From the NCBI GenBank assembly GCA_025355385.1, contig JANXZS010000199.1, positions 1 through 64,000 of the forward strand: DNA of 64,000 nucleotides, written 5' to 3'. How positions within the stretch are numbered: the stretch's first letter is position 1; the number at the start of each line of letters is the position of its first letter. The notes below the pieces were generated by a model. That model did no database searches. It saw nothing but the letters and a program-made list of their open reading frames with translations, and was not told the DNA's origin. Of this stretch, positions 5,432 through 27,128 are shown in pieces. A program made the position numbers and the translations under genes. Source of the DNA: Acidobacteriaceae bacterium. GTDB lineage: Bacteria; Acidobacteriota; Terriglobia; Terriglobales; Acidobacteriaceae.

Positions 5432-6040
5432 ATGCCTGTAGAATCTCAAAGTCCGATTTATCCTACGCCACGTTCCTTGAACAGTACTCCGCGAGCCGGG
5501 GCCGATTTGCTGCGACGGCGGCAGACGATCGGATTCTGCTATCGAGGGTCCGCTCGGGAGATCAGAGCGCAATGGAGGCACTGTTCGATTGCTATTCGGG
5601 GGTAATTTATTCTGTCGCACTTCGGGTACTCAAAGATCCGGGCCAGGCAGAAGACGTGATGCAGGACATCTTGATGCAGGTGTGGCGCAATCCGGATGGC
5701 TTTGTTTCCGAGAGGCACGCTCGGCGGTTGGCTGGTCGTTGTCTCCCGCAATCGCGCGATCGACTCCCTGCGCCGTCGTCGGCCGAGCGACTCGGTGGAA
5801 GATGTGGTATTAGTTTCACGTACCGACCTTGCTTCTGAGGCCGAACGGAATTTGTTGATGGAGAAAGTGCGGGGCGTGGTAAATGAGTTGCCGCCGGATC
5901 AGAAGCGATCAGTTAAGCTGGCCTTCTTTGACGGACTCAGCCACACAGAAGTTGCAGAGAAAGCGGGCGAACCTCTGGGTACGGTAAAGACTCGAATCCG
6001 ACTGGCGTTGATCGCTCTTAGAAAGGTACTGCGAACGTGA
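5432..6040 (+). pseudogene. ECF-family RNA polymerase sigma factor with one clear and one suspected frameshift
   Basis: Sigma region 2 is read in one frame from about 5521: DRILLSRVRSGDQ, then MEALFDCYSGVIYSVALRV and EDVMQDILMQVWRNPDGF. Near 5703-5710 the coding frame shifts by +1, and the rest continues as RGTLGGWLVVVSRNRAIDSL and the region 4 helix-turn-helix (DGLSHTEVAEKAGEP, GTVKTRIRLAL), ending at 6040. A second shift is suspected upstream: the frame with region 2 has no good start after its stop at 5428, whereas the neighbouring frame opens with ATG at 5432 (MPVESQSPIYPTPRS). Without a shift, translation could begin only at the ATG at 5572, inside region 2. The stop overlaps the anti-sigma start. 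It could be a decayed gene, local sequence error, or programmed frameshifting. Confidence 0.75.
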
Positions 6041-6887
6041 CGGACGGCCGACACATCCCGGATGAAGACCTGGCCCTCTATTCCATGCAGGCGCTGCACT
6101 CAGCTGATAGTGCGGCTCTCAAGGTGCATCTGGCGAGTTGCGACGTCTGCAGCCGTGAATTGGCTGAGGTAAACGGGGATCTAGCAGCACTTGCTCTAAC
6201 AGTCGAGCAGCAACCCCTTCCCGAGGGGGCACGGGAGCGCTTCGTGGCGCGCGTGACTGCGGAAAAGCGGCCAGTGAGTAATGTGATTGCCATGCCAGAC
6301 CCGCGCCGTCGCAGTTTTATCCCAGTCCTGATACCCTGGGCCGCAGCCGCGGCGATGCTCGCCGTTGCCGGATATCTTGGAGTGCAGAACCGCGACCTCG
6401 ATCGACTGCTCAATGCGGATCGTTCGCAGATTGCAACCTTGTCCGCACAGGCTTCGCGTGCCCAGCAGGTAATGGACACTCTGACCGCGCCCTCCGCCCA
6501 GCAGCCGACGCTCACCGAGGGAAAGGCAGCCGTTGCGCCTACCGGACATACCAGCTATGTTCCTGACCGTGGAGCCCTGATTTTCGTAGCGAACCACCTG
6601 AGACAGGTGCCGGCGTCAAAGACCTATGAATTGTGGGTCATACCGGCCAACGGTGGGGCTCCTATCCCCGCTGCACCTTCCGACCGGACGCGAATGGCAC
6701 GGCGAGCGTGGTGCTCCCGCCGCTGCCCCAAGGGGTTCCAGCAAAGGCCTTTGGTGTAACGATTGAAAATGAAGGCGGATCGCAGACCCCAACGATGCCA
6801 ATCGTTCTCTCCGGCGCGTGGCGTTCGTTCGCAGGCCATCCGATTCAACCTGCGTGTGCTCCCGAAGATGGATGTTACGAACTTTGA
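6037..6887 (+). pseudogene. RskA-type membrane anti-sigma factor, frameshifted near its end
   Basis: The frame from the GTG at 6037 gives an N-terminal anti-sigma domain with a zinc-type HLASCDVCSREL segment (about residues 31-42), a transmembrane helix (VLIPWAAAAAMLAVAGYLG), a coiled stretch, then the extracytoplasmic RskA domain (YELWVIPANGG). At about 6671 the reading moves to another frame, where the domain continues as TFRPDANGTASVVLPPLP and IVLSGAW and ends at 6887. One missing G (GCTGCACC for GCTGGCACC) would restore a continuous protein of about 283 residues. Uncorrected, the product ends at 6759 with an unrelated Arg-rich tail. It overlaps the sigma factor by 4 bp, the normal arrangement in which the anti-sigma holds its cognate ECF factor at the membrane. 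Confidence 0.8.
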
Positions 6888-26430: not shown

Positions 26431-26492
26431 GACAGTCGGCCTGATTCGAATCGGTATCCGACCGCTGATCTATCGCCAAACAGCCTTTCAAA

Positions 26493-26537
26493 GCTCTGCA
26501 GCGAGCACTATTGGGACGTGAGCAACCGCTGCAGAGC
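26493..26537. repeat. Perfect 11-bp inverted repeat downstream of the FAH-family gene
   Basis: GCTCTGCAGCG (26493-26503) and CGCTGCAGAGC (26527-26537) are exact reverse complements with a 23-nt loop. No T-run follows, so a factor-dependent terminator, attenuator or protein site upstream of the next gene are all possible. Confidence 0.5.
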
Positions 26538-26636
26538 GGATTTATGCTGTTGAGCAGGACGCTAACAACTCTTTAGCTACCTTCACCGAGCGTAGGCTTA
26601 CTCACGAATTCACATCGTTAAAAGAAGGCAAGCCAG

Positions 26637-27068
26637 ATGACAAAGAAGCTCTTTCTTGTTTCGGTATTACTCCTCGCCATGGTGTCTTTTTCAAGGGGTC
26701 AGGTCATAACCCCCGGAGCAAAGGTCTATGTCGCTCCCATGGCAGATAGTTTTGACGTATATGTATCGGCTGCACTACGGAAAAAGGATGTCCCACTCGT
26801 AGTCGTCACGTCAAAGGACGCTGCTGATTACATCCTTTCTGGAACCTCCAATTCGCAGAAGGCTGGCTGGGCTAAGATAGCTTTCCTAGGTAACATACAT
26901 TCCTCGGAAGAGGCGAGCATCACGTTGGCTGATGTCAAAACGAGCGTGGTTGTCTAGGCTTATAACGTCAATAAAGGCAGTTCAGCACGCGGCAAACAGA
27001 GTACAGCTGAAGCATGTGTCAAGCACCTTAAAGAAGAGATAGAAAAAGGACAGAAGGCCCCGAAGTAA
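26637..27068 (+). pseudogene. Small exported protein interrupted by one in-frame TAG
   Basis: Translation from ATG 26637 gives a signal peptide (KKLFLVSVLLLAMVSFSRGQ) and a small domain (VYVAPMADSFDVYVSAAL, DAADYILSGTS, EEASITLADVKTSVVV) that ends at a TAG at 26955-26957 after 106 residues. The same frame continues directly with AYNVNKGSSARGKQSTAEAC and KHLKEEIEKG to a TAA at 27066-27068, giving about 143 codons in all. One G-to-A change of a TGG tryptophan codon would explain the stop. I recall similar exported proteins in Acidobacteriota but no function. The gene is more AT-rich than its neighbours. Read-through, recent decay or a base error are the alternatives. Confidence 0.7.
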
Positions 27069-27128
27069 CCAGCTGAGTCAATGTCTTACTACGGACCGGT
27101 TGCGCACGCGGTAGCGGCCTAGAACGTT

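Follow-up and report, generated by a model that had tools for sequence, protein, structure and literature searches.

An in-frame TAG inside a conserved protein is what the gene studied here has in common with amber recoding, as described for pyrrolysine and for phage UAG reassignment. TAG in crAss-like phages is the topic of one source (PMC9523058), and the stop reassignments known in bacteria are said in another to concern UGA (PMC8629427). A different likeness is to nonsense pseudogenes of the ordinary kind, as they arise in accessory bacterial genes, with one stop, a conserved frame, a patchy gene and apparently broken copies elsewhere. The gene lies in the window, by which we mean the whole stretch of 64,000 nucleotides that was analyzed, located on a contig of 82.9 kb in an assembly of 4.63 Mb (321 contigs, estimated contamination 2.89%). 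It differs from recoded genes in that no recoding machinery was found in its genome and TAG is used as a stop nearby, and nothing sets it apart from ordinary nonsense pseudogenes. We regard it as probable that a recent nonsense mutation has struck an accessory gene, one that encodes a small exported protein of PelC/CsgG-like fold. A literature search found no paper on nonsense-mutation pseudogenes in Acidobacteria.

The reading frame runs on the forward strand from an ATG at 26637 to a TAA at 27066-27068, with 106 sense codons before and 36 sense codons after a TAG at 26955-26957, and the preliminary description of an in-frame TAG within an otherwise continuous frame was borne out. A mechanical ORF call stops at this TAG and yields 106 amino acids. 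The features are as follows.

26433..27128, no strand: segment unaligned with the sister genome G001 (from contig comparison and GC)
26637..26954, forward strand: open part of the gene, 106 residues, with a probable signal peptide and the beginning of a PelC/CsgG-like domain (from frame, relatives and predicted fold)
26955..26957, forward strand: in-frame TAG, in a column that is Phe, Trp or Tyr in the 48 full-length relatives kept, within what is predicted to be the final beta strand, spanning residues 105-113 (from frame, alignments and structure model)
26958..27068, forward strand: 36 codons, which encode the family's conserved C-terminal strand and helix, and the TAA; free of frameshifts (from frame, profile and relatives)

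By eye, the N-terminal sequence resembles a signal peptide, and we infer that the small protein is exported. Reinitiation after the TAG was rejected because the tail (26958..27068) has no in-frame ATG, GTG or TTG codon. The upstream neighbor belongs to the fumarylacetoacetate-hydrolase family; downstream, on the opposite strand, are a protein whose zinc-ribbon matches are weak and below cut-off, and gyrA. A promoter scan found no sigma-70 site, which says little.

The tail behind the TAG was searched alone, as 36 residues, against a profile of 48 relatives from which the window gene had been excluded. It matched at E 6.6e-12 (42.1 bits), compared with E 4.5 for the best unrelated fragment among 1712 stop-to-stop fragments of the window, the gene's own two included. 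By this match the tail is real protein sequence and the genuine end of a protein family, not a chance frame, in line with the earlier reading of one coherent protein up to the TAA at 27066. The 48 relatives were what remained of 94 matching ORFs after removal of 24 duplicates and 22 partial ORFs (span below 110 model positions, the window gene's own two copies among them). The stop falls within a domain that all 48 continue through, for at least 30 residues with the TAG column counted (higher counts being capped by trimming), as in a pseudogene, and none of the 22 dropped ORFs ends at the TAG, the window's own two copies aside. Orthologues ending at the same place had been named as a finding that would speak against an interrupted gene; no relative looked at ends there.

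Of the columns with 80% conservation among the nearer relatives, the window gene keeps 8 of 9 in the tail and 16 of 17 upstream of the TAG. Compared with the relative L012:1405-1827, identity is 50% across the 84 positions compared upstream of the stop, the signal region excluded, and 87% across the 30 positions after it, and the DNA differences after the stop fall mostly at third codon positions (3, 3 and 17 at positions 1, 2 and 3); L012 was the best of 16 relatives compared, with tail identities of 44-74% in the others. Selection after the stop was judged from one sequence, in which the tail is still conserved; the highest identity to any relative is 60%. A tree of 49 rows placed the window gene on a long end branch (0.89), and no grouping with half of the rows or fewer was well supported for it. 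The combination of one stop and a well-kept tail suggests a young pseudogene.

A change from TGG to TAG had been proposed, with Trp expected at this position in orthologues. The expectation held for part of the family: the column has Trp in 22 of the 48 full-length relatives, Phe in 23 and Tyr in 3. Among the 29 nearer relatives, however, Phe prevails (23, with 3 Trp and 3 Tyr), and 19 of the 22 Trp belong to a more distant clade. With Phe in most of the nearer relatives, Trp is one candidate for the ancestral residue, and a single mutation of a Trp codon could have given the TAG. The aromatic character of the column applies to the 48 relatives kept, as the dropped relative L149 apparently has Met there (by eye). 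In an earlier alignment of 32 relatives the row L023, which departs from the family after its middle, has Arg at the TAG column.

A structure model built from six sequences (mean pLDDT 79.8, pTM 0.68) has strands at residues 28-32, 54-57, 65-74, 90-99 and 105-113 and a last helix at 119-140, so that residue 107, the position of the TAG, lies inside the predicted last strand and ahead of the C-terminal helix. Foldseek searches with this model returned PelC chains first (E 2.4e-7, TM 0.58), with TolB and CsgG among those after, and the predicted fold is PelC/CsgG-like. The likeness to the PelC/CsgG type (PDB 5t11, 5t10, 4uv2) lies in this fold match; in contrast, identity between the window protein and the ten best PelC chains is just 18-21%, and no pel-type gene was present among the four window neighbors scanned. 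No Pfam family was matched by the read-through protein at E 0.1 or below, and its one NCBIfam match was weak (E 0.0081), far below the cut-off of that model. A PDB sequence search at E up to 1 gave two matches named tail proteins, neither of them PelC or CsgG. Matches of the open part to HEM4 (E 0.096) and DUF4336 (E 0.15) were below cut-off and, like those of 17 family members searched against Pfam, are read as possible chance matches; among the 17, three matched a phosphotyrosine phosphatase model (best E 0.0002), two matched DUF4136 (best E 0.0054), and other models were matched by one or two each.

Family matches were found in 63 of 398 genomes of the taxonomic family, the window's own genome included. 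G001, the sole other genome of the genus compared, gave no hit when searched for the gene with an E limit of 0.001; it is largely colinear with the contig, and the gap between the same neighbors holds a different ORF of 161 amino acids that had no Pfam match. Patchy in the taxonomic family and without a match in the sister genome, the gene is, by its distribution, accessory and probably dispensable. GC is 0.50 in the unaligned segment (26433..27128), 0.51 in the G001 gap and 0.57 in the window, and the GC3 of the gene, 0.53 with 0.42 in the tail, is lower than in any of the 37 window genes compared (lowest 0.547). Because the gap in G001 is likewise low, the low GC is by itself no sign of foreign origin; a plasmid search with the open part, bearing on a mobile origin, gave no match. 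Eight genomes carry a tandem pair of family copies (L011, L012, L013, L014, L015, L111, L112, L114), and the window has one copy. Elsewhere in the window, 22266-22367 matches residues 170-204 of a 206-aa ORF of G001 at 60% and is possibly the remnant of a lost gene.

The window's own assembly also holds an uninterrupted relative (L048) on contig C270, of 3845 bases, to which positions 26958-27046 have a DNA identity of 76%. It adjoins a second gyrA end that is only 66-68% identical to the gyrA of the window; C270 is therefore probably contamination, and the relative was rejected as a backup copy. The same contig has ORFs resembling BrnT/BrnA (named by eye).

The 81 match rows in the 398 genomes include three with an internal stop, namely the window gene and partial TAA-bearing matches in G062 and G161. 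Family copies in G068, G297 and G091 are split over two frames, as after a frameshift, and the family thus seems to decay elsewhere too; the genomes with these apparently broken relatives are assembled in 130-200 contigs, and errors may be among the cases. Copies that appear broken are L134, L135, L137 and L145 (two-frame in G068, G297 and G091, TAA in G062). Further partial family matches occur, for instance, in G069 and G187.

Decay, base error and amber read-through had been put forward as options in the preliminary description; decay is the best supported of these and base error its main rival, whereas several results speak against read-through. Programmed or leaky read-through, by which the full protein would be made, agrees with the conserved tail, and a near-cognate tRNA for Trp or Tyr would insert a residue in keeping with the mostly aromatic column. 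However, RF1 is present above cut-off, and the search for an amber suppressor tRNA and pyrrolysine genes that had been advised gave no support: the best PylS score was 21.3 bits against a cut-off of 178.15 (the same search gave matches in 13 of 14 control genomes, one of them above cut-off), and no CUA anticodon was found among 47 tRNAs, a negative that is weak alone because the set lacks expected members such as Asn, and the general tRNA model may miss tRNA-Pyl. The RNA after the stop has no unusual fold (z 0.60, with 137 of 200 shuffles folding at least as well), an Rfam search gave no match, and no relative was seen with TAG at the same column. Neighboring genes use TAG as an ordinary stop. 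It ends 13 of the 37 window genes checked, and all 12 of these that have a match in G001 terminate there at the same position to within 0-2 residues, five of them with TAA or TGA; TAG is thus an ordinary stop here, and there is good evidence from these comparisons that it terminates translation in this organism. We accordingly hold read-through to be highly improbable. We give just as little credence to leaky read-through by a near-cognate aromatic tRNA that would yield little full-length protein and let the TAG of this species switch between a truncated and a complete product. That the truncated 106-residue protein is itself the functional product is also very unlikely: its open part keeps nearly all the conserved upstream columns, but the cut passes through the predicted domain and the relatives run on beyond it.

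The TAG could instead be an error of sequencing or of the consensus, or come from a minority variant if the assembly is mixed, with the gene intact. A single disabling change in an otherwise well-conserved gene, with a conserved tail, fits this explanation as well, and so do the many contigs and estimated contamination of the assembly. Against it, 58 ORFs of G001 match the contig and 54 of them do so in a single frame without a stop inside the respective gene of the window; for six of the 54, stops fall ahead of the start of that matching gene (positions compared by hand). The other four are uninformative, being a distant paralogue, the 206-aa ORF, which matches over only 35 residues, and a pair of short, doubtful ORFs that contain stops, and base errors therefore seem rare, in a comparison blind to frameshifts that lie in the outermost 15% of a match. 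Frameshifts elsewhere had also been claimed. The one place checked does look broken: an ECF sigma-factor gene at about 5521-6040 on the forward strand has sigma-70 region 2 at 5521-5736 and region 4 in the next frame at 5714-6037, followed by an RskA-like anti-sigma gene at 6037-6759. The claim does not extend to the matched genes, which are unbroken in the 54 cases. Of the 82.9 kb of the contig, 70.4 kb (about 85%, summed by hand) align to G001, and both the TAG gene and the split sigma-factor gene lie in the unaligned 15% or so. The decay of dispensable genes fits this location better than random error does, although the test is a weak one, with two cases judged post hoc and an unaligned part surveyed less fully. 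We consider a base error unlikely, while giving it more weight than any of the other alternatives.

In the preferred explanation, a nonsense mutation in a dispensable gene would have made the TAG at 26955-26957, and translation would end there and leave a precursor of 106 residues that has lost roughly a quarter of the protein from its C-terminal side. Lacking the C-terminal helix and the greater part of the final core strand of the model, this product probably does not fold. We infer that function has been lost, that the loss is recent and that the TAG base is real. The family to which the gene belongs is patchy, has a predicted PelC/CsgG-like fold and is without a clear Pfam model, and its five named matches are all from Acidobacteria, from which the gene itself probably comes from an acidobacterium too. 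The gene also carries a caution, in that a conserved tail past an in-frame TAG is how a young pseudogene appears.
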